A stretch of 64,000 nucleotides of DNA from Candidatus Marinarcus aquaticus (GCF_004116335.1 NZ_PDKN01000011.1:1-64000), one strand, 5' to 3'. Shown: positions 2 to 58,826, counted from the first letter of the stretch. Notes: a model not told the origin generated them from the letters alone. Program-made: numbers and translations.

Positions 2-946
2 TTTTCATTATTCTTGTTCTTTAGCTTTATTAAAGCAGAAAATCTTATTGTAAAAAAAAGAGTTTTTTATATTAATTCTTATAATTCTGGTCTTTATTGG
101 AGTGATGGAATTGAAAAAAGTATAAAAAAAGTATTTTTTAATTCTAAAATGCCCATTAAATTTAAAAGAGCCGAAATGGACTCTAAAAGAAATAATGATG
201 AGCCTTACAAAATAAAAATAGCCCAAAAAATCAAAAATCAAATTGAAAACTTTAAACCTGAGGTGATTATTACCTCAGATGACAATGCTTTTAAATATAT
301 AATTTTACCTTACTTTAAAGACAGTACTATTCCTGTTATTTTTTGTGGGATAAATGGTTCTAGCAAAAAATATGGGTTGCCAATATCTAATGTTACAGGT
401 ATGGAAGAGGTGCAATTAGTTCCTCAAACTGTTGAAATCTTAAGCAAGTATGCAAAAGGTAATAGAGTAGGTTTTTTAAAAGATGATTCCTTGACTACAA
501 GAATTGAGTTAGCCTATTTTCAAAAACAGTTAAATAAAAAAATGGAGGCAAGATTAGTCACTTCTGTTGAAGAGTGGAAAAAAGGATTTATTGAATTACA
601 AAATAATGTAGATATTCTTATCATTGGATATGGGGGCTCTATAAAAGATTGGGATAAAAATAAAAAAGAGATAAAAGACTTTACACTTCAAAATACTATT
701 ATTCCAACTGGAACAGGTGATGGAAATTTAATTGAATATGCGCTTTTGTCTCTACCTCTTAAACCAGAGGAGCAAGGTGAGTGGGCAGCAAATACAGCTC
801 TTAGAGTTCTAAAAGGTGAAAACATAAAAAACATTCCTATTGTTGTAAATAAAAAATCAAATATTTTTATAAATACAACGTTAGCAAAAAAGTTTAATAT
901 AGTTTTTCCTTTTGAATTAATTGATAATGCGGTGCTAATAAAATGA
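2..946 (+). CDS. ABC transporter substrate-binding-like protein, 5' end missing
   Basis: The reading frame is open from the window edge. Its first visible residues are hydrophobic and end in FIKA-EN, which looks like the tail of a signal peptide, so the true start lies upstream. The mature part (about 300 residues) has the alternating beta-alpha pattern of periplasmic binding proteins of the PF04392 type (conserved stretches near VIITSDDNAFKYI, PVIFCGINGS and IIPTGTGDG). The last codon overlaps the start of the downstream histidine kinase (ATGA). No permease or ATPase is visible, so I infer that it senses a ligand for the kinase rather than serving uptake. The fold is fairly clear; the ligand is unknown. 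Confidence 0.72.
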   Translation, partial: FSLFLFFSFIKAENLIVKKRVFYINSYNSGLYWSDGIEKSIKKVFFNSKMPIKFKRAEMDSKRNNDEPYKIKIAQKIKNQIENFKPEVIITSDDNAFKYIILPYFKDSTIPVIFCGINGSSKKYGLPISNVTGMEEVQLVPQTVEILSKYAKGNRVGFLKDDSLTTRIELAYFQKQLNKKMEARLVTSVEEWKKGFIELQNNVDILIIGYGGSIKDWDKNKKEIKDFTLQNTIIPTGTGDGNLIEYALLSLPLKPEEQGEWAANTALRVLKGENIKNIPIVVNKKSNIFINTTLAKKFNIVFPFELIDNAVLIK

Positions 947-2988
947 TAAAAAATAGCTCTTTAAAAACGGAACTTCTTATTTCAATCCTTTTGGTAATAA
1001 TACTTGGAATAGGTGCTATTTTTTACTTCTCTTACAATTATTTAAAAAAAGAGATAGATATATCACAAGAGGAAATATATAATGAAAAGATAGATAATAT
1101 TATCTATCTTATAAATCAAAAATATGAAATACTTTTAAAAACACAAATGGAAAAATCCTATGAAGAGTCATTTAAAAAAGGTACTTTAAATATTGTAAAA
1201 AAAGTTTTTGATAAAAATAAGAAAGATATTTTCCCTTTTATTATAGATGAAAATGGTTTTGTCGTGTTACATAAAATATATAATAAACAAAATGCTCATT
1301 TATATAAAAATAGAGAAGAGTATAAAAATATATTAAAAAATAAGAATGGCAATTTTGATATCATAAGGGAAAATAATGGCAGATGGGTTATTTTTAAATA
1401 TTATGAACCTTGGGATTGGATTATAGGTTATAGGGTTAGTAAGGATGTTAAATATGAACAATTATATATATTTAGGGAGATATTTTTAACTGTATCCCTC
1501 ATAATTGTTCTCGTGATTTCACTAATGATTATTTTGATAGTTAGAAATGTGTTAAAACCTATTGATATGTTAACGACAGTTTCTAAAAGAATTGCATCTG
1601 GAAATTTAGATACACAGATTAAAGTGTCAGGCGTAAAAGAGTTAAAAATATTATCATCAAATTTTGAAAAGATGAGGGATAAAATTGTTGAAGATATTGA
1701 ACAGTTAAAAGAGCAAGAAGAAAAAATAAAAGCATTTAATTCTAAACTTCAAGAAGATGTAAGACTTAGAACAAAAGAGTTAGAAGAAGAAAAGAGAGTT
1801 TTTGAAACACTGTTTAATGACAGTTCCGATGGAATAAGTTTATTAAAAGATGGTAAGTTTATTGATTGTAATCTTGCACTTTTAAAATTGCTCGATATAA
1901 AACAAAAAGAGGAATTCTTAAATTTAAATCTCAATATGATATCTCCAGAGATTCAAGCAAATGGCATATCTTCAGCTATTTTGGTAAAAGAGAATATAAA
2001 CAAATGTTTAGAGAAAGGTAGTATACGATTTGAATGGCTTCACAAAAAAGTAACAGGTATAGAGTTTTGGTGTGAGATTGTACTTACAAAAATAGTCATT
2101 AATGGTGAAGTTGTAGTTCATGGAGTTTGGAGAGATATTCAAGATAAAAAAATGCTGGAGCTGGAGCTGGAAAATAAAAATCTTGATTTGCAAGAATCAA
2201 ATCATGAACTTGAAGCTTCGATGGAAAATCTGATAATCACTCAAAATAAACTCATAGAATCTGAAAAATTGGCGGGACTTGGTAGTTTGGTTTCAGGTGT
2301 AGCCCATGAGATCAGTGCACCCATTGGTCTTGGAATTACAGGAGCATCACATTTAGAGTATATTTGTGAAGAGGTGATTTCAAAATATGAGAGTGGCACA
2401 ATTCCACCTGAAGAGTGGGAGCGTTATTTACAAAGTTCAAATGATTTGGTTAAAGTCATTGTAAAAAGTTTACAAAAAACAGAAAAGATTATAAAAAACT
2501 TTAAACAAGTAGCAGTGGATCAAACCAGTGAATTAAAAAGAGTTTTTAACGTTAAAGAGTATATAAAAGGGATCTTGATTAGTATGGATAGATTATTAAA
2601 TGAAAGAAACATTGAGTTTAAAATAGAGTGTGATGAGATGCTACAAATTGAATCTTTCCCCGGTCTTTTTGCACAAGTTCTTACTCATCTGATCTCAAAC
2701 TCTTTAGAACATGCCTATAAAGATACTGAAAAAGGAGTTATCTCTTTAAATGCTAAAATTGAAGATAAAGAGTTTATTTTAGAATATCGTGATTATGGAA
2801 AAGGAATCTTACAGGGCAATATATCGAAAATTTATGAGCCTTTTTTTACCACCAATAGAAATAATGGTTCAATTGGATTAGGATTAAATATTGTTTATAA
2901 TCTCATAACAATTAATTTAGGCGGGAAAATTGATTGCATAAGTGAAGAAAACAGAGGCACTACATTTATTATAAAAGTCCCACTTTAA
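943..2988 (+). CDS. Membrane sensor histidine kinase (Cache-HAMP-PAS-HisKA-HATPase)
   Basis: 681 residues. Segments seen: TM helix at about 10-32; a periplasmic Cache-like sensor domain at about 35-175 (FIIDENGFVVLH, then WVIFKYYEPWDWIIGY); second TM at about 178-200; HAMP at about 200-255; coiled coil; PAS-like domain at about 285-405; second coiled coil; H-box with VAHEISAPIG (His455); N-box SNSLEHAY near 585; G-boxes DYGKG near 617 and GLGLNIVYN. All catalytic elements are present. It overlaps the upstream binding-protein gene by 4 bp, so the two are probably translationally coupled. No response regulator gene is adjacent, so the output partner must be encoded elsewhere. Confidence 0.88.
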   Translation: MIKNSSLKTELLISILLVIILGIGAIFYFSYNYLKKEIDISQEEIYNEKIDNIIYLINQKYEILLKTQMEKSYEESFKKGTLNIVKKVFDKNKKDIFPFIIDENGFVVLHKIYNKQNAHLYKNREEYKNILKNKNGNFDIIRENNGRWVIFKYYEPWDWIIGYRVSKDVKYEQLYIFREIFLTVSLIIVLVISLMIILIVRNVLKPIDMLTTVSKRIASGNLDTQIKVSGVKELKILSSNFEKMRDKIVEDIEQLKEQEEKIKAFNSKLQEDVRLRTKELEEEKRVFETLFNDSSDGISLLKDGKFIDCNLALLKLLDIKQKEEFLNLNLNMISPEIQANGISSAILVKENINKCLEKGSIRFEWLHKKVTGIEFWCEIVLTKIVINGEVVVHGVWRDIQDKKMLELELENKNLDLQESNHELEASMENLIITQNKLIESEKLAGLGSLVSGVAHEISAPIGLGITGASHLEYICEEVISKYESGTIPPEEWERYLQSSNDLVKVIVKSLQKTEKIIKNFKQVAVDQTSELKRVFNVKEYIKGILISMDRLLNERNIEFKIECDEMLQIESFPGLFAQVLTHLISNSLEHAYKDTEKGVISLNAKIEDKEFILEYRDYGKGILQGNISKIYEPFFTTNRNNGSIGLGLNIVYNLITINLGGKIDCISEENRGTTFIIKVPL

Positions 2989-34045: not shown

Positions 34046-37000
34046 ATGTCAAACGTAATTAAAATCACAGACAAAAATGGGAATATCCAAGAGTTACAAG
34101 TAGATAAGAACATAGAATTAAGCGTCCAAAGTGGGGACTATGTTTTTATTGATGAACTATTGAATGCTGTACAATTAGAGATTATCAATAACGATAACCT
34201 AAAAGTAGTATTTCCAAATGGTAATGAAGTTGTGTTGAATGATATCGCAAAATTAATCAGCGAGAACCCAACCGGAGAGATAGCACCGCAGTTCAGTGAT
34301 GAAGAGTTAATAAACAGTTTGACAACAAAATTAGAGTTTCTTCAAAATGACCTGTTTGATGAAGGTGCTGTGATTTCAAATTATGCAGAGTTGTTAAATG
34401 CATTGCAAGCAGCAGCCGCTGGTCAAGAAGTGTTAGAAGACGGAAGTGCTGCACCAGAGATTAATATTGGTGATTATAAAGCAAGTGACAATGAGTATGA
34501 GCTGGGTCACTTAAGAACAGCACAAGCCGATTTAAATGATGACTTAGTACCGGGCGAAGCAGCGAATAATGGTACGGGTACAGGTGATGCTGGTACAGAT
34601 GGTACAGGTACAGAGGCAACACCTTTAAATACAGTCGTATCTCTTTCTGCAACAGATACCAATGAAGATGTGGGTGAGATTGTTATCACTGCAACACTTA
34701 CAACTGCAGGTGAAACGGATGTAACTATTACAACAGAGCATGGTGATATTCTTATTCCAGCAGGTGAAACAACAGGTACATTAGTTGTAGATGTACAAGA
34801 CTCTGATGTATATCTTGACCCTCAAACATTCTCTGCTACTGTTTCTGAAGTTTCAGGTGGTAATTTTGACAATGTTGATTTCTCTGATGCGACAACAACT
34901 GCACAAATCACAGATACCATTGATACAACCACCATGACCCTTGAAACAAGTGCCATTAATGAAGACAGTGAAACCGTAACGGTGACTGCAAAACTGGATA
35001 ACCCAGCACAAACAGATATGACAGTAACATTAGAAGATGGAACAGAGATTACGATTGAAGCTGGAAAAACAGAAGGAAGCACGGAAGTTAATTTAGCAGA
35101 GATGAGTGATGTGTATAATGATGATAACGGAAGCTACACAGCAACAGTAGAATCAACCACAGGTGGAAACTTTGAGAAGTTAGATATTTCAGGAGCGACT
35201 GTAACAACAGCCATCACAGATACCATTGATACAACCACCATGACCCTTGAAACAAGTGCCATTAATGAAGACAGTGAAACCGTAACGGTGACTGCAAAAC
35301 TGGATAACCCAGCACAAACAGATATGACAGTAACATTAGAAGATGGAACAGAGATTACGATTGAAGCTGGAAAAACAGAAGGAAGCACGGAAGTTAATTT
35401 AGCAGAGATGAGTGATGTGTATAATGATGATAACGGAAGCTACACAGCAACAGTAGAATCAACCACAGGTGGAAACTTTGAGAAGTTAGATATTTCAGGA
35501 GCGACTGTAACAACAGCCATCACAGATACCATTGATACAACCACCGTAACCATTACGGGAACAGTTACAAGTCCTTCAACCATTGACGTAACCAATATTG
35601 ATTCAGAACCAAATGGGATCAATGTTTATGCTCTTGATTTAAATGGAGACGTTCAAGATTTATCGGTTGTAAAAGGAACCAACCATGATGGTTTTGGTGT
35701 AAATGGAAAAACTTCTGGTTCAGGAGCAAGTTCAGAACTTGGTCATGGTAACAATGGAGTGAGCGAAAAAATTGTTGTAGATTTTGATTCTGAAGTAAAA
35801 AGTTTAGATGTCTCTTTTGCATGGAGAAACAACAGAGAAACCGCAAAAGTAACATTTTTTGATGACGAAGGAAATGAAGTAGGTTCTGCGACAGTTTCTG
35901 GAGGTGGAAACAACAATGAAGCACTTGTAACATATTATGATGAAAATGGTAATGTAACAAAAGTTGAAACTGCACAAGGTGGTTCAGACAAAGTTGACTT
36001 ATCATATAAATTTGAGCCAGGAAATGGACAAACATTCTCTAAAGTAGAGTTCTCAGCACCAGGTTATGATGATGATTATTTAATTAATAAAATCACTTAT
36101 AAAGAAGTCGTTAATTCAGATGTAACGGATGTTATTACAAATAATGGAGAAGTTACATTAGAAATTCAAACGTCAAACCCTCCACAAGCAGGAACAACGG
36201 CAATAGCTGTTGTAGAAGTAGGTGGAAAAGAGTATCATGTACAATTGGATGTGAATGGTCGAGGAACTTTAAATGTTGAAGTTAATGGTGATTCAGACTT
36301 AACAGCAACGGTAAAAGAGATTATTGGTGGAAATTTTGAAGATGTGGATACTTCAAATGCCAATTGGGATTTAGCATCAGAACTTATTTCATTAGATGAC
36401 AATATTGATGCAGTAGAAGACCAAACCTACTATTTGGATACGACAGACTTTGGAGATGAACAAATAAATGTTTCACAAGTTAAAATTACTGAGTTACCTG
36501 AAAATGGTACACTTTACATGAACAGTGGAAAAATTGTAGAAACTATTGTCACCAATGATGGAAAAGAGATTAATGTTTATGAAAATAAACAACCAATTGC
36601 AGCTGGCACAGTTATAACAATGGCAGATATTGCAGCAGGAAAAGTTTCATTTGAACCAGATTCAAACAGTGATGAAGATGGTAGCTTTAAGTTTCAAGCA
36701 GATGATGGAAATGGAAACTTTAAAAACACAGAACATACCACTACCATTAAAGTAACGGCAGTAGCTGATGCACCAACGTTAGATATGGATATCAGCGATG
36801 CGAATGTTATCGCAGGTGAACCACAAGGGGGATTATTTGATGATTTAACAATTGAAGATGGTCAAAACTTGGATCACAGTTACTATTCAAATCATCATGA
36901 TCAAGATTTGAAAATTGATAATATGAATGCACATACTATTAATTTAAGTCATGGTGATGACAATGTCAGTATCAAATACAGTGTCAATGGAAAATATATT

Positions 37001-38086
37001 GAACTGGGTGGCGGTGATGATAATTTAGTCATAGGTGGAAGTGCTGATAATAGTACAATTTATGCTGGAAGCGGTGATGATAATGTGCAAATCGATGGAA
37101 ATATGGGTTCATATGTGCATTTAGGTTCAGGAGATGACAATATCCAAATTGCATCGGATGCTAATTTTAACAGTGGCGCAAAAATTGATGGAGGTTGGGG
37201 AAAAGATACTCTTTTCTTTACGGGAAATGCATCAAATTATGCCATCGTTGACTTCTGGGGTAATCGACTCTCTTTTGAGGATTATAATGCAGGTGAGTAT
37301 TACACTGGACATGAATATAAAATTTATAAAGTTGATGGTAATGGTACGCTTCAAGGTAATCCACTAAAAGTTGAGAGCATTGAGAAAATTGTATTTGAAG
37401 GTGATATGGCTGATAATGCGCAAGACAGTTATGAATATACAATTGACTTAAATGCACAATTAACAGATACGGATGGCAGTGAAACATTATCGGATATCAC
37501 ATTAACAAATCTTCCAGCAGGAACGGTTTTAAAAGACAGTGATGGCAATGAGCTTACAGCAAATGATGATGGAAGTTATACGGTGCCTGTAGATGAAAAT
37601 GGTGGAGAAGTGAGTGTGACTTTATCAAGTCAAACACAACTTGACGAGAGTGCATTAAAAGAGATTAAAGCAAGTGTGACTTCAACAGAAGAGAATGGAG
37701 GCGATACCGAAACGGTTTCTGCAACTGACGACTCTTTTATCATTGAAGAAGATACTGTACTTGACTTTGATTCATTATCACAAGATCAATTGCCACAAGC
37801 ATCTACACTTGAACTTGGTAATGGTGCACAAACACTTGAAAATGTTGAATATCAAGATATTCTAAGCATGGCAAGTACCGATGAGAATTCTGAAAAAATC
37901 TTCAAAATTCTTGGTGACAGTGAAGATACTGTTAACCTCAAAGATGGTGAAGGAGACAACAAATGGACGAAATCTGAAGAGCAGTTTACTGATGAAGATG
38001 GTGAAACATTTGATGTCTATACCAACCAAGATCTTACCGTATTTATTGACAGTGATGCAGATACAAATATCACTGGAGGTATTTAA
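34046..38086 (+). CDS. Large repetitive type I-secreted adhesin (LapA/RTX-like)
   Basis: 1346 residues, acidic, no N-terminal signal. Residues 1-125 look like a retention module (VIKITDKNGNIQELQVD, LKVVFPNGNEVVLND). A Gly/Thr linker at about 177-195 is followed by Ig/Calx-beta-like domains, two of them identical 102-residue copies. Then come a cadherin-like domain (about 795-910, VEDQTYYLD, DGSFKFQADDGNG), RTX-like nonapeptides (GGGDDNLVI, GSGDDNVQI, GSGDDNIQI) and a typical T1SS C-terminal tail (ILGDSEDTVNL, DGETFDVYTNQDLTVFID). It is probably held at or released from the cell surface. The secretion genes are not nearby. Confidence 0.85.
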   Translation: MSNVIKITDKNGNIQELQVDKNIELSVQSGDYVFIDELLNAVQLEIINNDNLKVVFPNGNEVVLNDIAKLISENPTGEIAPQFSDEELINSLTTKLEFLQNDLFDEGAVISNYAELLNALQAAAAGQEVLEDGSAAPEINIGDYKASDNEYELGHLRTAQADLNDDLVPGEAANNGTGTGDAGTDGTGTEATPLNTVVSLSATDTNEDVGEIVITATLTTAGETDVTITTEHGDILIPAGETTGTLVVDVQDSDVYLDPQTFSATVSEVSGGNFDNVDFSDATTTAQITDTIDTTTMTLETSAINEDSETVTVTAKLDNPAQTDMTVTLEDGTEITIEAGKTEGSTEVNLAEMSDVYNDDNGSYTATVESTTGGNFEKLDISGATVTTAITDTIDTTTMTLETSAINEDSETVTVTAKLDNPAQTDMTVTLEDGTEITIEAGKTEGSTEVNLAEMSDVYNDDNGSYTATVESTTGGNFEKLDISGATVTTAITDTIDTTTVTITGTVTSPSTIDVTNIDSEPNGINVYALDLNGDVQDLSVVKGTNHDGFGVNGKTSGSGASSELGHGNNGVSEKIVVDFDSEVKSLDVSFAWRNNRETAKVTFFDDEGNEVGSATVSGGGNNNEALVTYYDENGNVTKVETAQGGSDKVDLSYKFEPGNGQTFSKVEFSAPGYDDDYLINKITYKEVVNSDVTDVITNNGEVTLEIQTSNPPQAGTTAIAVVEVGGKEYHVQLDVNGRGTLNVEVNGDSDLTATVKEIIGGNFEDVDTSNANWDLASELISLDDNIDAVEDQTYYLDTTDFGDEQINVSQVKITELPENGTLYMNSGKIVETIVTNDGKEINVYENKQPIAAGTVITMADIAAGKVSFEPDSNSDEDGSFKFQADDGNGNFKNTEHTTTIKVTAVADAPTLDMDISDANVIAGEPQGGLFDDLTIEDGQNLDHSYYSNHHDQDLKIDNMNAHTINLSHGDDNVSIKYSVNGKYIELGGGDDNLVIGGSADNSTIYAGSGDDNVQIDGNMGSYVHLGSGDDNIQIASDANFNSGAKIDGGWGKDTLFFTGNASNYAIVDFWGNRLSFEDYNAGEYYTGHEYKIYKVDGNGTLQGNPLKVESIEKIVFEGDMADNAQDSYEYTIDLNAQLTDTDGSETLSDITLTNLPAGTVLKDSDGNELTANDDGSYTVPVDENGGEVSVTLSSQTQLDESALKEIKASVTSTEENGGDTETVSATDDSFIIEEDTVLDFDSLSQDQLPQASTLELGNGAQTLENVEYQDILSMASTDENSEKIFKILGDSEDTVNLKDGEGDNKWTKSEEQFTDEDGETFDVYTNQDLTVFIDSDADTNITGGI
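34909..35520 (+). repeat. Perfect 2 x 306-bp in-frame tandem repeat
   Basis: The 306-bp unit at 34909-35214 is repeated without visible change at 35215-35520, and the first 27 or so bases recur again before the sequence diverges. The unit encodes one 102-residue Ig-like domain (starts TDTIDTTTMTLE). Such identity points to recent duplication and allows copy-number change by recombination. Confidence 0.93.
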
Positions 38087-38164: not shown

Positions 38165-38240
38165 GACCCCGTCGTCTAGAGGCCAAGGACGTCAGGATTT
38201 CCTCCTGAAAACGTATGTTCGAATCATACTGGGGTCGCCA
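38165..38240 (+). tRNA. tRNA-Glu (anticodon TTC)
   Basis: 76 nt including an encoded CCA. Acceptor stem GACCCCG / TGGGGTC, D-arm GTCT...GGAC with AGAGGCC, anticodon stem TCAGG / CCTGA with loop ATTTCCT (anticodon TTC at 34-36), T-arm GTATG TTCGAAT CATAC. All four stems fold. It reads GAA and GAG. Confidence 0.97.
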
Positions 38241-53294: not shown

Positions 53295-54395
53295 ATGACA
53301 ATTATAGAACTTTTTCAGAAGCTTTTACGTTATAAATCGGTCACACCTTCCGATGATGGAGCATTTGATTTTATAGAGGAGTATTTAGGCGAGGAATGGA
53401 CTTGCATAAATATCGATAGAGAAGATACAAAAAACAGATTTTATTATAAAAAGTTTAATGACAATCCCCAGCACCTATGTTTTGCAGGACATATTGATGT
53501 AGTACCTCCAGGTGAGGGTTGGGAGGTTGATCCCTTTGCTGCAGAAGTTATAGATGGAGTAATTACTGCAAGAGGTTCACAAGATATGAAAAGTGGTGAT
53601 GCTGCCTTTTTATATGCTTGTAAACATGCAAAAAACTTTGATGGAACACTCTCTATTTTAATGACAAGTGATGAAGAGGGCGAAGGAACCTATGGAACCA
53701 TCAAGGCTTTAGAACACTTAAAAGAGATTGATTTTATTCCACAATATGCCGTGGTAGCAGAACCAACGTGTGAAGATATTTTTGGAGATGCAATCAAAGT
53801 AGGGCGAAGAGGAAGTATCAATGGATATATCACTATCAAGGGAAAGCAAGGTCATGCTGCTTATCCTGAAAAGTGTATAAACCCAGTACATAACTTTGCA
53901 CATGTACTTCCTAAAATAGCTGGTCATAATCTTGATGATGGAGATGAGTATTTTGCTCCTAGTAAAATGGTAATCACTGATATAAGAGGTGGTATGCAAG
54001 TTACAAACGTAACTCCAAATGAGTTAAAACTTATGTTCAATGTAAGAAACTCAACAAATACTACAAGAGAATCAGTAGAAGAGTTTATCCATAAAAACCT
54101 AGAAGGTTTAGAGTATGACTTTAGAACGACACAAGGTTCATTCCCGTTTGTAACCAATAAAGAATCAAAAGTGGTGAAAGCTATGGAAAACTCTATAAAA
54201 GAAGTTTTAGGAGTAACAACAAAACACTCAACACACGGTGGAACTTCTGACGCCAGATATTTTGGAGCTTTTGGAATAGAAGCCATAGAGTTTGGAGTTA
54301 TAAACGATACTATTCACTCTGTAGGGGAGAGAACAACTGTTAAAGAAGTAGAGGGATTAACTGCTGTTTTTGAGGACTTGATTAAAAACTTTTAG
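53295..54395 (+). CDS. dapE: Succinyl-diaminopimelate desuccinylase
   Basis: 366 residues. M20 peptidase fold: LCFAGHIDVVPPGEGW near 60 (zinc His, Asp), GSQDMKSGDAAFLYA near 95 (second Asp), SDEEGEGTYGTI near 125 (catalytic Glu-Glu), and HGGTSDARYF near 315. Lysine and peptidoglycan precursor synthesis. Acidic, cytoplasmic. The accessory patch begins right after it. Confidence 0.92.
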   Translation: MTIIELFQKLLRYKSVTPSDDGAFDFIEEYLGEEWTCINIDREDTKNRFYYKKFNDNPQHLCFAGHIDVVPPGEGWEVDPFAAEVIDGVITARGSQDMKSGDAAFLYACKHAKNFDGTLSILMTSDEEGEGTYGTIKALEHLKEIDFIPQYAVVAEPTCEDIFGDAIKVGRRGSINGYITIKGKQGHAAYPEKCINPVHNFAHVLPKIAGHNLDDGDEYFAPSKMVITDIRGGMQVTNVTPNELKLMFNVRNSTNTTRESVEEFIHKNLEGLEYDFRTTQGSFPFVTNKESKVVKAMENSIKEVLGVTTKHSTHGGTSDARYFGAFGIEAIEFGVINDTIHSVGERTTVKEVEGLTAVFEDLIKNF

Positions 54396-54477
54396 ATTTG
54401 ATTACATTATGTAATATTTTTTATTATTTATAAAAAACACTGATAGAATTACTTTATATTATTTATGGAGTAGTTCT

Positions 54478-55026
54478 ATGGAAAACTTAGCAAAACAATT
54501 GATTGAAAATCAAATCTATGATATTCGTAACTTAAAAGTGATGTTAGATAGTGACTTGGCAACTCTTTATCAAGTTGAAACCAAAAGAATAAATGAAGCT
54601 GTAAAAAATAATCCTGAAAAATTTCCTGAAGATTTTTATTTTGAATTGACAAAAGAAGAAACAGAAATTTTGAGGTCGAAATTTTCGACCTTTAAAAATA
54701 GCTTAAATAATAGAAAATATAATCCAAAAGTATTTACCGAGCAAGGTGTATATATGCTCGCAACTGTACTAAAAAGCAAAGTTGCCACAGATGTAACAAT
54801 AAATATCATGCGAACCTTTACAAAGCTTAGAGAGTTTGCACTTACTTACAAAGATATAGTAATAGAACTAAAAAATCTAAAAGAAGATTTGAAACTAAAT
54901 AAAAATCAAACAATAGAAAATACAAAACATATCAAAACAGCCTTTGAACTGCTTACTCAAATACTTGAAGATACAAAAAAGACAGATGATAAAGTGATGG
55001 GGTTTAGGGTTGAAAAAAAGAATTAG
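54478..55026 (+). CDS. ORF6N-domain DNA-binding protein
   Basis: 182 residues. ORF6N domain about 8-95: YDIRNLKVMLDSDLATLYQVETKRINEAVKNN region, FPEDFYFELTKEE, then KVFTEQGVYMLATVLKSKVA. The C-terminus is a coiled coil (ELKNLKEDLKLNKNQ). ORF6N proteins come mostly from phages and mobile DNA and act as regulators or antirepressors. It lies at the head of the AT-rich accessory patch. A perfect palindrome (GGTCGAAATTTTCGACC) sits inside the coding region near 54674-54690. Confidence 0.85.
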   Translation: MENLAKQLIENQIYDIRNLKVMLDSDLATLYQVETKRINEAVKNNPEKFPEDFYFELTKEETEILRSKFSTFKNSLNNRKYNPKVFTEQGVYMLATVLKSKVATDVTINIMRTFTKLREFALTYKDIVIELKNLKEDLKLNKNQTIENTKHIKTAFELLTQILEDTKKTDDKVMGFRVEKKN

Positions 55027-55061
55027 ATATAATAAAAGCAATTGAATGAAAGGAATTATTA

Positions 55062-56612
55062 TTGTTAGACTTTATTCTTAATCAAAGTAATATTGGCATA
55101 TATAATAAATGTGAAATTATAGAAGTTTTTGGTATCAGAAAAAATGATAAAACACCTTTTAATATTTTTACACTTGTTGTTTTTGAAAATACAAAACAAG
55201 AAAAAACAAAAGAGTTTTCATTTGATAAACTTCAAAAGTTTAAAGGTATAAAAGATATTAAATGGGGAATCCAGAGGCGAATAGTTAATATTGATATTGT
55301 AAAAAAGTTATATGATGATTTATTAAATAACGAAATTTTTCAAATTGACGATATATTAGAAGTGGGTTCTTTAAAACTTCTTCCTGAACAATATGTACAA
55401 TCTGAAGATTGGTTTAATAATCCTCAATTGAATCATATTTTAAAAAATAATTTTAAATACGGCTCTTATATATTAGAGTTTTTTGATGAAGATAAAGGCA
55501 ATTGTCAGTTTCTACTTGATGCACCTGAACTTTTAAATAGTTTCAGTGAAAATTTGACTGAAAAACTACCTATAAAAATTGGGAACCTTTCTGATAGACT
55601 TGGTAATATTATTCTTCAATTTCCTATTAATAGTTTTACGATGACTTGGACAACTATTAAAAATAAAGAACTTCGTAGGTATGAAGGAATAAAGGTGGAG
55701 ATTGAACCTAAAAATAGTAACTTTAATCTAGATAATTTACTTATAAGGATATATGAAGAGAATGATAATGTTATTACAAGACAAAGATTAATTGAAGTAA
55801 AAGATAATATTGTAGAAATTTTGTTAGATGATTGTTTTGGAACAACTATTGAAATTTTTGATAAAAAAAGTTCATTTATATTATATAAAAATAAATTTAC
55901 GATTATGAAAGAAATGAATTCTATAATTGCTATACAAGAACCTCAAAAAAGAGTGTTTAATGTTAATGGAAAAACTGAAGAAATTGTAGTGTCACATAAT
56001 CAAAGTAATACATATGGTAAAGCCAATAAAGATAATAAAGAATTTAATTTATGGATTTCAGATAGAAAATATGAAGATGAGTTAAAAGAACTTGAAGAAA
56101 AAAAATCTTTTATTCAGTACTATGGAAAACAAGAAAGTAAGGCACTTTTAGATGTTAGAGAACTTATTAAAAAGTATGGAGAAAATGGCGTTTATCTTTG
56201 GGATCCATATTTAAGTGCAGATGATATAAAAAAGACATTGTATTTCTCAGCTAATGCGCATGTTCCATTAAAAGCAATAAGAGGCTTTAAAAAAAATGAT
56301 AATCAAGAACATAAAAAACAGATTAAAGAAAATATGAAAAATATATTTAATTCTGATGAACAACAATTTTTATTTCTAAATTTAGAGGTTAGAGGGAAAA
56401 TAGATAATAATGGATATGATTTTCATGATAGGTTTTTAATATTTCCGTTAGAAAAACCAAAAGTATGGTCTTTGGGAACATCTGTAAATAGTCTTGGCAA
56501 ATCCCACCATATTATGCAAGAAGTAAAACATGCTCAACATATTTTAAATACATTTAATGACTTGTGGAAAAAACTAGATAAAGAAGAGTGTTTGATATGG
56601 AAAAGCAGATAA
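55062..56612 (+). CDS. Unknown protein with PLD-like nuclease C-terminal domain
   Basis: 516 residues from TTG at 55062 (AAAGGA 7 nt upstream). The first 330 or so residues are of no family I recognise; the region around 170-290 is beta-rich. The last 150 look like a phospholipase D-like nuclease: GVYLWDPYLSADDIKKTLYF near 385, then YDFHDRFLIF near 460 and WSLGTSVNSLGKSHHIMQEV near 475. The single His-x-Arg motif would need dimerisation. The layout recalls VPA1262-like proteins, but that is memory only. It overlaps the next gene by 16 bp, so they likely form one system. Confidence 0.6.
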   Translation: MLDFILNQSNIGIYNKCEIIEVFGIRKNDKTPFNIFTLVVFENTKQEKTKEFSFDKLQKFKGIKDIKWGIQRRIVNIDIVKKLYDDLLNNEIFQIDDILEVGSLKLLPEQYVQSEDWFNNPQLNHILKNNFKYGSYILEFFDEDKGNCQFLLDAPELLNSFSENLTEKLPIKIGNLSDRLGNIILQFPINSFTMTWTTIKNKELRRYEGIKVEIEPKNSNFNLDNLLIRIYEENDNVITRQRLIEVKDNIVEILLDDCFGTTIEIFDKKSSFILYKNKFTIMKEMNSIIAIQEPQKRVFNVNGKTEEIVVSHNQSNTYGKANKDNKEFNLWISDRKYEDELKELEEKKSFIQYYGKQESKALLDVRELIKKYGENGVYLWDPYLSADDIKKTLYFSANAHVPLKAIRGFKKNDNQEHKKQIKENMKNIFNSDEQQFLFLNLEVRGKIDNNGYDFHDRFLIFPLEKPKVWSLGTSVNSLGKSHHIMQEVKHAQHILNTFNDLWKKLDKEECLIWKSR

Positions 56613-58039
56613 ATCAAATTTTAACACAAATACATGAAAATGATACTTCAAAGTTAGATGGTAGCTTTTTAGATAAATATTATCAGTTGTTTGATACTAA
56701 AAAATATCTTGGAAAAGATTTTGATTCTATTTATAAAGATATGGAAACAGCATATGATATAAAAAAATATTCAATGCCATATGATGATAAATCTACTAAA
56801 ATATATAAACAACTCGTAGAAAGTGTTGTAAATGTATTTGATGATAAAAAAAGGTTAAAATTAATCCCTCTAATTGTTTATTTAGACATAGAAAATACTT
56901 TATATAACTATTTGTATGAGAATAAATATTTTGATAATTTTATAGAAGTAAAAGATTATTTTATAGGTACTCTTGAAGATAGTGGTGTCAGCGTAGATAT
57001 TAAAAGTATCTCAAAATACCATTGGGAAAGTGAAGCTTATGAAAGTTATCAAAAAGCTTTAGTGCAAAAAGATTTTATACAGATATATAATTTTGTAGAG
57101 GCAGTACAACGAGGGAATTTTATGTATGAACCGTATATAGATTTTCTCTCTTTTGTTTCTGTTAAAATATTTTTTGATGATTTCGTTAAGGTTTTAGATA
57201 ATATAAATAATGTTTTTAAAATAAAATATTTGCTAAATAATTTAACCACAAAAGAGAAACTTTTATTGGCTAATAAAACTAAAAATACTTTAGTGAAATT
57301 TGAAGCTATTAGAAGCAGTGTTTATTTTAAATCTAACCATAATAGTTGTAGCAATCTTTTAAAAGACGAAAATGGGCTTATTTCAAAAAACATGCTTTTT
57401 TTAACACAAGATAAACAAGTTTGGAAAGATTTTCTTCAATATTTTTTAATCTACCCTTCAAGAAATCCACAGCTTTTTTTACCTCTTGCAGATGTATTAA
57501 GTCAAAGTAGTAATGAAACAATAAATATTTTTATTGATACTGTAAAAATAAATCAATATTTTGATGAGGATAGCAAAGAAGCCTTAAATAATAGTATTTT
57601 TAAAATAGAAGATGATGAAATCCAAAAATATATAATGGAAAAGATTTTTACAAAATGGAAAGATTTTATTGATAGTTATGATGACTATATTGGAAATCTA
57701 TTTTTAACTGATGTTATTGATATTGCAATTGTTTATGTAAGAGAGTTTTTGCCAAAAGAAGTTATAGAAAAAGAGATTAAACAAATAATTTATAATATAG
57801 AAGAAATAGATAATTATTGGTTTAAAAATAGTTCTCAACAAGGAAATTATTTATATAAACAACTTTCAAAGCTTTTTGTTTTTGGAATTTCAATAGAAAA
57901 GCATCATCTAAATAATTTAAAAAATGAAATAGGGAATTTTTTATATAATATACGTAAGAATTTGAGAGGTGAATATTCTCATAACTCTAAAACAACAATG
58001 CAATTGTTTAATGAATATGTTTTAAAGGAAAATAAATAA
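56597..58039 (+). CDS. Large helical protein of unknown function, partner of the PLD-like gene
   Basis: 480 residues from the ATG at 56597 (AGAAGAG 8 nt upstream; a GTG at 56588 is also in frame). Almost entirely helical by composition, rich in Asn, Ile, Lys and Tyr, with no signal or TM helix. The C-terminus reads IRKNLRGEYSHNSK, whose Arg-x4-His resembles the HEPN ribonuclease motif, a weak hint only. Overlap with the PLD-like gene and the high AT content suggest joint acquisition. Defence against phage or plasmids is my inference from gene type and setting. Confidence 0.6.
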   Translation: MEKQINQILTQIHENDTSKLDGSFLDKYYQLFDTKKYLGKDFDSIYKDMETAYDIKKYSMPYDDKSTKIYKQLVESVVNVFDDKKRLKLIPLIVYLDIENTLYNYLYENKYFDNFIEVKDYFIGTLEDSGVSVDIKSISKYHWESEAYESYQKALVQKDFIQIYNFVEAVQRGNFMYEPYIDFLSFVSVKIFFDDFVKVLDNINNVFKIKYLLNNLTTKEKLLLANKTKNTLVKFEAIRSSVYFKSNHNSCSNLLKDENGLISKNMLFLTQDKQVWKDFLQYFLIYPSRNPQLFLPLADVLSQSSNETINIFIDTVKINQYFDEDSKEALNNSIFKIEDDEIQKYIMEKIFTKWKDFIDSYDDYIGNLFLTDVIDIAIVYVREFLPKEVIEKEIKQIIYNIEEIDNYWFKNSSQQGNYLYKQLSKLFVFGISIEKHHLNNLKNEIGNFLYNIRKNLRGEYSHNSKTTMQLFNEYVLKENK

Positions 58040-58205
58040 ACATATGTCGTGGTATATTTGAAATATCATCATGCCAAATATTATAATCAGTAAAGTGATT
58101 TCTCTTTCAAAAATTTATAACCTAAAAACTATTTATTGTATATAAAAGTCATTAAAAAATTTTAGGAAGAACAATTATAAATAAATTTATAAAAAGGTAC
58201 GAAAT

Positions 58206-58442
58206 ATGCCATTTTCAAAAGAAGAAAAACAAAAGCTTTTAGAAGTAAAGTTTGTAGGTGAAACCGTTATAAGAAGATTTGAGCAAATAGGTATTGATTC
58301 TTTGGAGGCTTTATCTAAAAGTAGTGTGGATGAGATTACGGATATTGTTTCAGATATTTTGGGAAGCAGTTGTTGGAAAAATTCTCCCCAAGCTAAAAAA
58401 GCGGTGCAAAATGCCATTGATTATGCTAAATCTGTCCAATAA
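58206..58442 (+). CDS. Helix-hairpin-helix small protein (Cdd1/TfoX-C-like)
   Basis: 78 residues. KFVGETVIRRFEQIGIDSLEALSKSS has the helix-hairpin-helix layout of TfoX C-terminal or Cdd1-type domains, followed by two helices with SSCWKNSPQAKKAV. Likely binds DNA or acts as a small adaptor. It precedes the MmcQ/YjbR gene by 27 bp on the same strand. The 166-bp gap before it shows nothing convincing. Confidence 0.7.
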   Translation: MPFSKEEKQKLLEVKFVGETVIRRFEQIGIDSLEALSKSSVDEITDIVSDILGSSCWKNSPQAKKAVQNAIDYAKSVQ

Positions 58443-58469: not shown

Positions 58470-58826
58470 ATGAACTTAGAACAAATAGAAACTATATTTA
58501 TGGCTAAGCAAGGGGCAACAAAAGATTTTCCTTTTGGTGATGATACTATGGTATTTAAAGTTATGGATAAAATGTTTGGTCTTATTAGTTTGAAAAAAAA
58601 TCCGTTAAATATAAATTTAAAATGTGATCCAAATGATGCAATAGCCTATAGAGATATTTATGAGTGTGTAAATCCAGGTTATCATATGAATAAAAAACAT
58701 TGGAATACCATAACCTTAGATGGAACTATAAAAGAAGAGATACTAAAAGACATGGTCAATGAATCATATGATTTAATAGTATCGAAACTAACAAAAAAAC
58801 AAAAAGAAGAGTTATTTTTCAAATAG
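58470..58826 (+). CDS. MmcQ/YjbR family protein
   Basis: 118 residues. FMAKQGATKDFPFGDDTMVFKV near 10-31, MFGLISLKKNPLNINLKCDP, and NPGYHMNKKHWNTITLDG near 67 are the family's conserved stretches. The fold resembles a double-wing DNA-binding protein; function is not established. TfoX-like and YjbR-like genes are often neighbours. Confidence 0.85.
   Translation: MNLEQIETIFMAKQGATKDFPFGDDTMVFKVMDKMFGLISLKKNPLNINLKCDPNDAIAYRDIYECVNPGYHMNKKHWNTITLDGTIKEEILKDMVNESYDLIVSKLTKKQKEELFFK

Follow-up and report, generated by a model that had tools for sequence, protein, structure and literature searches.

Two overlapping genes at positions 55062-58039 of the window, the 64,000-nucleotide stretch of Candidatus Marinarcus aquaticus DNA analyzed here, raise the question of what a nuclease-like protein and a large companion protein do together in a variable patch of a bacterial genome. 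The initial annotation had suggested a defense system in which a phospholipase D (PLD)-like effector acts with a dedicated helical partner. We examined the locus, the two predicted proteins, their relatives across sequenced species and the genes surrounding them.

The gene pair and the variable site next to dapE

Two open frames of 516 and 480 codons had been called at this locus, and both are present. Gene 1 (55062-56612, plus strand) has 516 codons and a TTG start, with the sequence AAAGGA just before it. Gene 2 ends at 58039 on the same strand and starts either with an ATG at 56597 (480 codons) or with a GTG at 56588 (483 codons), resulting in an overlap with gene 1 of 16 or 25 bases, respectively. 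The GC content is 0.23-0.25 across 55-58 kb compared to about 0.30-0.38 for most of the window, in agreement with the description of the pair as a more AT-rich patch. Note that another AT-rich segment of the window (14-2988; GC 0.24-0.28) encodes, as judged by eye, an ABC-type substrate-binding-like protein and a sensor histidine kinase. Elsewhere, at 34046-38086, the window contains a surface-protein-like open frame of 1346 residues in which a repeat of about 90 residues (TTTMTLETSAINEDSETVTVTAKLDNPAQ...) occurs in two identical tandem copies; a tRNA-Glu comes next, at 38165.

On the left, the pair is flanked by dapE (53295-54395, plus strand), which is 82-95% identical in most relatives, and by a gene for an ORF6N-domain protein (54478-55026, plus strand; PF10543, E 5.6e-35; PDC-S05, E 2.6e-70). 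On the right are genes for a 78-residue helix-hairpin-helix (HHH) protein (58206-58442, plus strand), with a weak Pfam match to HHH_5 under the cut-off, and for a YjbR-family protein (58470-58826, plus strand; PF04237, E 1.2e-29), which is 96% identical in relative G433. All four genes lie outside the proposed system.

For 15 Arcobacteraceae relatives (L189-L203), we examined what follows dapE, counting as alternative cargo the genes located between the same flanks as the pair or straight after dapE. In G433, the dapE, HHH and YjbR genes follow each other without anything between them, and the distance from dapE to YjbR is 687 bases, versus about 4.1 kb in the window. G390 has the ORF6N gene and then directly the HHH gene, with no cargo. 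Other relatives carry at this site a KAP NTPase of the PADLOC candidate class PDC-S49 (G376 and G256), an AAA and NACHT pair (G309 and G428), a 1273-residue nSTAND protein with a profile match just below cut-off (G123), a HipA protein (G323), a TPR-AAA_21 ATPase together with a small gene (G425) or an ion channel (G395). The same-genus relative G001 is without the pair. The DNA match between the window and G376 (L198) breaks at 55053 and resumes at 58184, with homology to relatives continuing in the HHH gene. Because the site is empty or differently filled in relatives and the DNA match breaks at these two positions, the pair, on the segment 55054-58183, behaves as exchangeable cargo of a defense hotspot. 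In the window this hotspot spans 54396-58205; across relatives it lies between dapE and the HHH/YjbR or related genes and holds defense-type cargo or is empty. G207 has at the same site a 1245-residue protein (L190:2470-6207) with no match in Pfam or PADLOC, a further defense candidate by position.

The ORF6N gene was considered as a third component of the system and rejected, as the same site in relatives has other cargo or none. It follows dapE in 7 of the 15 relatives, and a homolog lies within 6 kb of just one other pair (L042). Since it stands beside unrelated cargo or none, we regard it as a hotspot resident outside the system. Thus, the originally described setting of the pair, next to a phage-type ORF6N gene and between dapE and small genes, is correct as to the neighbors, but the ORF6N gene belongs to the site and does not indicate delivery of the pair by a phage.

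Predicted folds and the altered active site

Gene 1 is a clear member of the NCBIfam family NF040700 ('VPA1262 family N-terminal domain', VPA1262_N_dom), with an E-value of 6e-66 and a score of 223 bits against a curated cut-off of 80. The alignment is nearly full length, covering residues 63-503 of the protein and positions 15-477 of the 478 in the profile. The NF040700 entry describes a family without assigned function and does not mention a partner gene. Profile searches in Pfam, PADLOC and PHROGs returned no match for gene 1, and the PADLOC-DB 2.0.0 (2023) models assigned no family to either protein of the window.

The AlphaFold model of gene 1 (pLDDT 89.8, pTM 0.69) consists of an alpha/beta N-terminal part, a beta-sandwich, a disordered linker and a C-terminal PLD domain. 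The beta-sandwich (residues about 190-283; 55629-55910) resembles the sandwich domain of GH2 enzymes, with VIA-align Z-scores of 9.3-9.8 over 88-96 residues. The linker (residues 315-338; 56004-56075) is modeled with low confidence (pLDDT <50). For the C-terminal domain (residues 340-516; 56079-56609), the proposed PLD-like identity was borne out both by the model and by structural matches. VIA-align gave Z-scores of 12.1 for FAM83, 11.3 for SauUSI, 11.0 for NucT, 10.4 for Nuc, 10-11 for bacterial PLDs, 10.2 for TrmB and about 9.5-9.9 for Zucchini; overall, many PLD chains matched with Z 9-12 across 130-170 residues. Foldseek matched the domain to Zucchini, NucT and Nuc with a probability of 1.00 and E-values of about 1e-3 to 5e-3. 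Sequence searches of the PDB with both proteins and both alignments returned only chance-level matches.

PLD enzymes have the general motif H-x-K-x4-D-x6-G-S-x-N. The sequence stretches noted at the outset (WDPYLS, FHDRFLIF and SLGTSVNSLGK) are all found in gene 1, which reads H-D-R-F-L-I-F-P ... G-T-S-V-N at the position of this motif. H455-D456-R457 (56424-56432), at the HxK position with Lys changed to Arg, is invariant in 78 of 78 relatives, as are G472, S474 and N476 of the G-x-S-x-N element (56475-56489), at the GSxN position, and likewise W380, D381 and T392. The complete HxK(x4)D(x6)GSxN motif is absent: R457 replaces the Lys, and the Asp position is occupied by Pro in 75 of the 78 relatives. 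The PLD part is the most conserved portion of the protein, with a mean identity of 45% versus 30% for residues 1-312. With Arg at the Lys position of HxK and no Asp after it, catalysis by gene 1 is not assured. However, the motif is altered yet fixed, and therefore a working enzyme with changed chemistry is favored over a relic; we predict that gene 1 has nuclease activity.

The PLD-like part of gene 1 is related to that of PDC-S05, a PADLOC candidate comprising ORF6N, a coiled coil and often a C-terminal PLD-like domain. When relatives of genes 1 and 2 were compared with PADLOC, 19 of 78 gene-1 relatives matched PDC-S05, weakly and through the PLD-like part, and the other matches were sporadic and weak. 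Conversely, all 30 weak matches to NF040700 contain a PLD-like part, 14 of them with ORF6N in the same open frame. The HDRF-type PLD domain, being common to gene-1 relatives and ORF6N/PDC-S05 proteins, may thus be a shared effector module. PDC-S05 proteins are encoded by single genes and have an ORF6N head, whereas the head of gene 1 is rich in beta structure and its partner is a solenoid. The ORF6N gene of the window is a form without the PLD-like part. At L010:1012-1887 and 29 other weakly matching Campylobacterota loci, we noted ORF6N proteins with a C-terminal PLD-like sequence (HDRF...GASLKDLGKK), sometimes several per genome.

Gene 2 (56597-58039, plus strand, from the ATG) matched no family in Pfam, NCBIfam, PADLOC or PHROGs. 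Its AlphaFold model (pLDDT 89.6) is helical throughout and forms a solenoid. Structural matches to HEAT/ARM and PUF proteins had middling scores, and no specific structural family was returned in searches with the model. The predicted all-helical superhelix may be like that of HEAT/ARM solenoid proteins (Z 6-9, and up to 9.3 over 217 residues), with scores that are common for any helical repeat protein and no sequence relation detected. Only two Trp residues are near-invariant in the gene 2 family, a pattern unlike that of an enzyme. A HEPN nuclease, suggested earlier on account of a weak Arg-x4-His pattern near the end of the protein, was rejected on residue conservation in 66 relatives: Arg occupies the R457 column of gene 2 in 12 of 66 sequences, the residues common in the H462 column do not include His, and an Arg-x4-His pattern is present anywhere in the sequence in 19 of 66. 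Two clostridial partners (L057 and L106) are about 380-400 residues long and are without roughly the first 140 positions of the solenoid profile; their gene 1 is complete.

Distribution and parallel divergence of the two genes

Relatives were sought with conserved blocks in one genome per species across 84,980 species. Because two short motifs were required, the result, at least 95 gene-1 relatives, is a lower bound; the best 80 of the 95 were kept. Relatives occur in more than 10 phyla including archaea: Campylobacterota, Pseudomonadota, Bacteroidota, Bacillota, Acidobacteriota, Chloroflexota, Myxococcota, Bdellovibrionota, Thermodesulfobacteriota, Fibrobacterota, Candidatus Melainabacteria and Methanobacteriota.

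An iterative search seeded by gene 2 of the window alone placed a gene 2 homolog directly downstream of gene 1 in 87 of 94 loci. This recurrent gene order, together with the profile score of gene 1, puts the pair far beyond chance. Overlap between the genes was seen in 70 of the 76 pairs in which it could be measured, with 4, 16, 25, 28 and 49 bases as the most common lengths. Among the seven loci outside the 87, three are at a contig edge (L008, L121 and L124), one has a divergent partner-like gene with a weak match only (L110), and in two the partner was not detected (L082 and L094). In the latter two, from Chitinophaga (L082:9950-11542) and Methanobrevibacter (L094:9998-11503), gene 1 appears to be intact, suggesting that the partner is not strictly obligatory. 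L082 is from an isolate, and no partner was found across its whole genome; at L094, the gene after gene 1 resembles, by eye, an FRG-domain protein. The NF040700 match at L014 (G135) was not accepted as an ordinary relative and was treated separately, as a distinct variant that does not have this partner. Its operon (L014:1105-4122) encodes a 523-residue distant relative of gene 1 with FHDRF and an altered head, a second PLD-like protein of 187 residues with FHDRF, and a third protein with no detectable relation to the partner.

Of the 19 gene-1-carrying genomes that were searched, 18 contain the partner. In these, its copy number equals that of gene 1, including two copies in the genome with two gene-1 loci, and orphan partners were not seen. 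In 397 Campylobacterota genomes, clear partner matches were limited to G000 and G317, both of which also have gene 1, and G281 was marginal. With two complete pairs in these 397 genomes and no fixed syntenic position, the pair is rare and not a universally conserved element of the genus. Pairwise distances of gene 1 and gene 2 are closely correlated (r 0.925; none of 2000 permutations exceeded 0.11), and the partner diverges faster, with a mean identity of 17% versus 33% for gene 1. Thus, homologs of the two genes do co-occur, and they diverge in parallel.

In the tree, gene 1 of the window groups first with Aliarcobacter; the next to join are a delta-proteobacterial bin and gammaproteobacteria, among them Methylophaga (support 100). 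This grouping points to transfer between phyla, with the caveat that bin names are submitters' labels and not proof. Several gene-1 copies are located on plasmids. Among phage sequences, gene 1 was found in five viral contigs and in a single annotated phage record, a 6.8 kb clone that is unverified; scanning viral contigs directly at the protein level, with only the protein of the window as query, gave no match. We therefore rejected prophage cargo as an explanation and consider that phages are not the main vehicle.

Defense-gene neighborhood and proposed function

To analyze the surroundings, we took up to eight proteins nearest the pair at 18 loci and, as controls, an equal number from 20-kb stretches elsewhere on the same contigs. 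At a threshold of E 1e-20, the 143 neighbor proteins matched 62 PADLOC families, compared to 3 for 139 control proteins. Note that 62 is a count of families and not of proteins, and that some of these families represent variants of a single system; the contrast with the controls is still large. The matches listed include CBASS cyclases and effectors, E1-E2/JAB, HamA of Hachiman, AbiEi, reverse transcriptases and type II methyltransferases. By annotation, the pair has around it a type I restriction system plus a reverse transcriptase on an Aliarcobacter faecis plasmid, restriction endonucleases and an AbiEii-type gene on an Agrobacterium plasmid, and a CBASS cyclase and a pore-forming effector on a Rhizobium etli plasmid. 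The pair thus lies in defense islands, an association that bears indirectly on its function.

This setting bears on whether the pair serves defense at all. It could instead have another role in mobile elements, such as element competition or an accessory metabolic or envelope function sited in islands. The pair does occur on plasmids and genomic islands, and the family's namesake in Vibrio parahaemolyticus, VPA1262, is a gene of the pandemic island VPaI-6, where its neighbors include integrase and colicin-like genes (PMC1464126). However, the neighborhood signal is specifically one of defense, and the chromosomal site in Arcobacteraceae also hosts NACHT, nSTAND, KAP and HipA cargo, making a non-defense role highly unlikely. 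Alternatively, the pair might resemble a toxin-antitoxin module, with gene 1 a constitutively toxic nuclease and gene 2 a proteic neutralizer, the loss of which would bring about defense or plasmid stabilization. Overlapping genes that diverge in parallel, the second one faster, and the plasmid location of several copies are consistent with this arrangement. So is the single in-frame stop in three gene-1 copies beside an intact partner (L002, L072 and L111), as would be expected of a costly effector, in numbers too small to weigh. On the other hand, the effector gene comes first and the partner second, and a partner of 480 residues is unlike small labile antitoxins. Moreover, an apparently intact gene 1 is found without a partner (L082 and L094) or beside a broken one (L068 and L041, both draft bins), weakly suggesting that gene 1 alone is tolerated; we consider a toxin-antitoxin pair improbable for this reason.

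A different possibility concerns the effector itself. FAM83 is regarded as a pseudo-PLD, and the PLD-like domain of gene 1 could similarly be a pseudoenzyme, or act like the effector-binding part of TrmB, so that defense would be exerted by binding or scaffolding rather than cutting. The replacement of the catalytic Lys by Arg, the missing Asp and the structural matches, with FAM83 scoring best and TrmB also detected, would fit such a role. Yet the active-site His, Arg, Ser and Asn are invariant in 78 sequences from across phyla with an overall identity averaging 33%, a degree of constraint that a pure scaffold would not need, and the match to SauUSI, a restriction nuclease of the PLD type, is about as good. 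A pseudoenzyme therefore appears unlikely.

We return to the PLD domain as a putative nuclease. Zucchini/MitoPLD, Nuc and NucT, which are homodimers with two half-sites, have one PLD domain per chain, as has gene 1, and match its fold with Z 9.5-11. Unlike gene 1, they contain the full HxK motif and have neither a partner gene nor an N-terminal sensor-like part. In DISARM, DrmC is a PLD-type defense nuclease. SauUSI, DrmC and the CoCoNuT types with PLD domains (PMC11090510) have a PLD-fold nuclease domain as effector, similar to the role proposed for gene 1. The window pair differs from these systems in being without helicase, ATPase or methyltransferase, in having H-x-R in place of H-x-K and in having one domain per chain. 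Thus, a defense operon with a PLD nuclease is of a known kind, while the combination of PLD and solenoid appears to be new. In the literature searched, with supplementary lists and most subscription journals outside its scope and an unnamed entry among predicted systems possible, we found no phage assay of any family member and no description of the function of VPA1262 or of a two-gene PLD and HEAT system.

In conclusion, the PLD fold, near-obligate pairing, defense neighbors and swappable cargo site, all genomic or computed, support the candidate defense system, and the pair is most likely a widespread two-gene system of this kind, apparently uncharacterized, with a function that we infer. 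From the computed pairing, folds, invariant active-site residues, mobility and island setting, we think it probable that the two genes together constitute a single horizontally transferred system against phages (or mobile elements), in which the solenoid and the N-terminal part of gene 1 provide sensing or restraint and the PLD nuclease is the effector. Gene 1 would combine its alpha/beta part and beta-sandwich, via the flexible linker, with a PLD-type nuclease domain contributing one H-x-R ... G-x-S-x-N half-site per chain. Because there is a single half-site, the active enzyme would probably be a dimer, or else be assembled on the partner. The solenoid may bind gene 1 directly and, with the N-terminal part as the presumed sensor, would detect infection and restrain the nuclease until triggered. 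The nuclease would then cut phage or host nucleic acid and stop the infection, possibly with loss of the cell; an abortive action is envisaged rather than a selective one. Only two genes are conserved across loci and neither matches a methyltransferase family; the pair contains no modification enzyme, and therefore a triggered effector is favored over restriction-modification.

On the stronger reading that this is an undescribed, cross-domain two-component immune system, in which an H-x-R PLD nuclease with a new sensor head is controlled by a dedicated solenoid without known relatives, we are evenly divided. Only one of the two proteins has a family name. If the proposal is correct, the PADLOC library used in this analysis has missed a defense system present in species of more than 10 phyla, archaea among them, and the pair would offer a direct way to test how a solenoid partner controls a PLD nuclease whose active site is altered. 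It would also suggest a role for one gene of the VPaI-6 island of pandemic Vibrio parahaemolyticus. In the Arcobacteraceae, the dapE-side site is a readable hotspot for finding other candidate systems.
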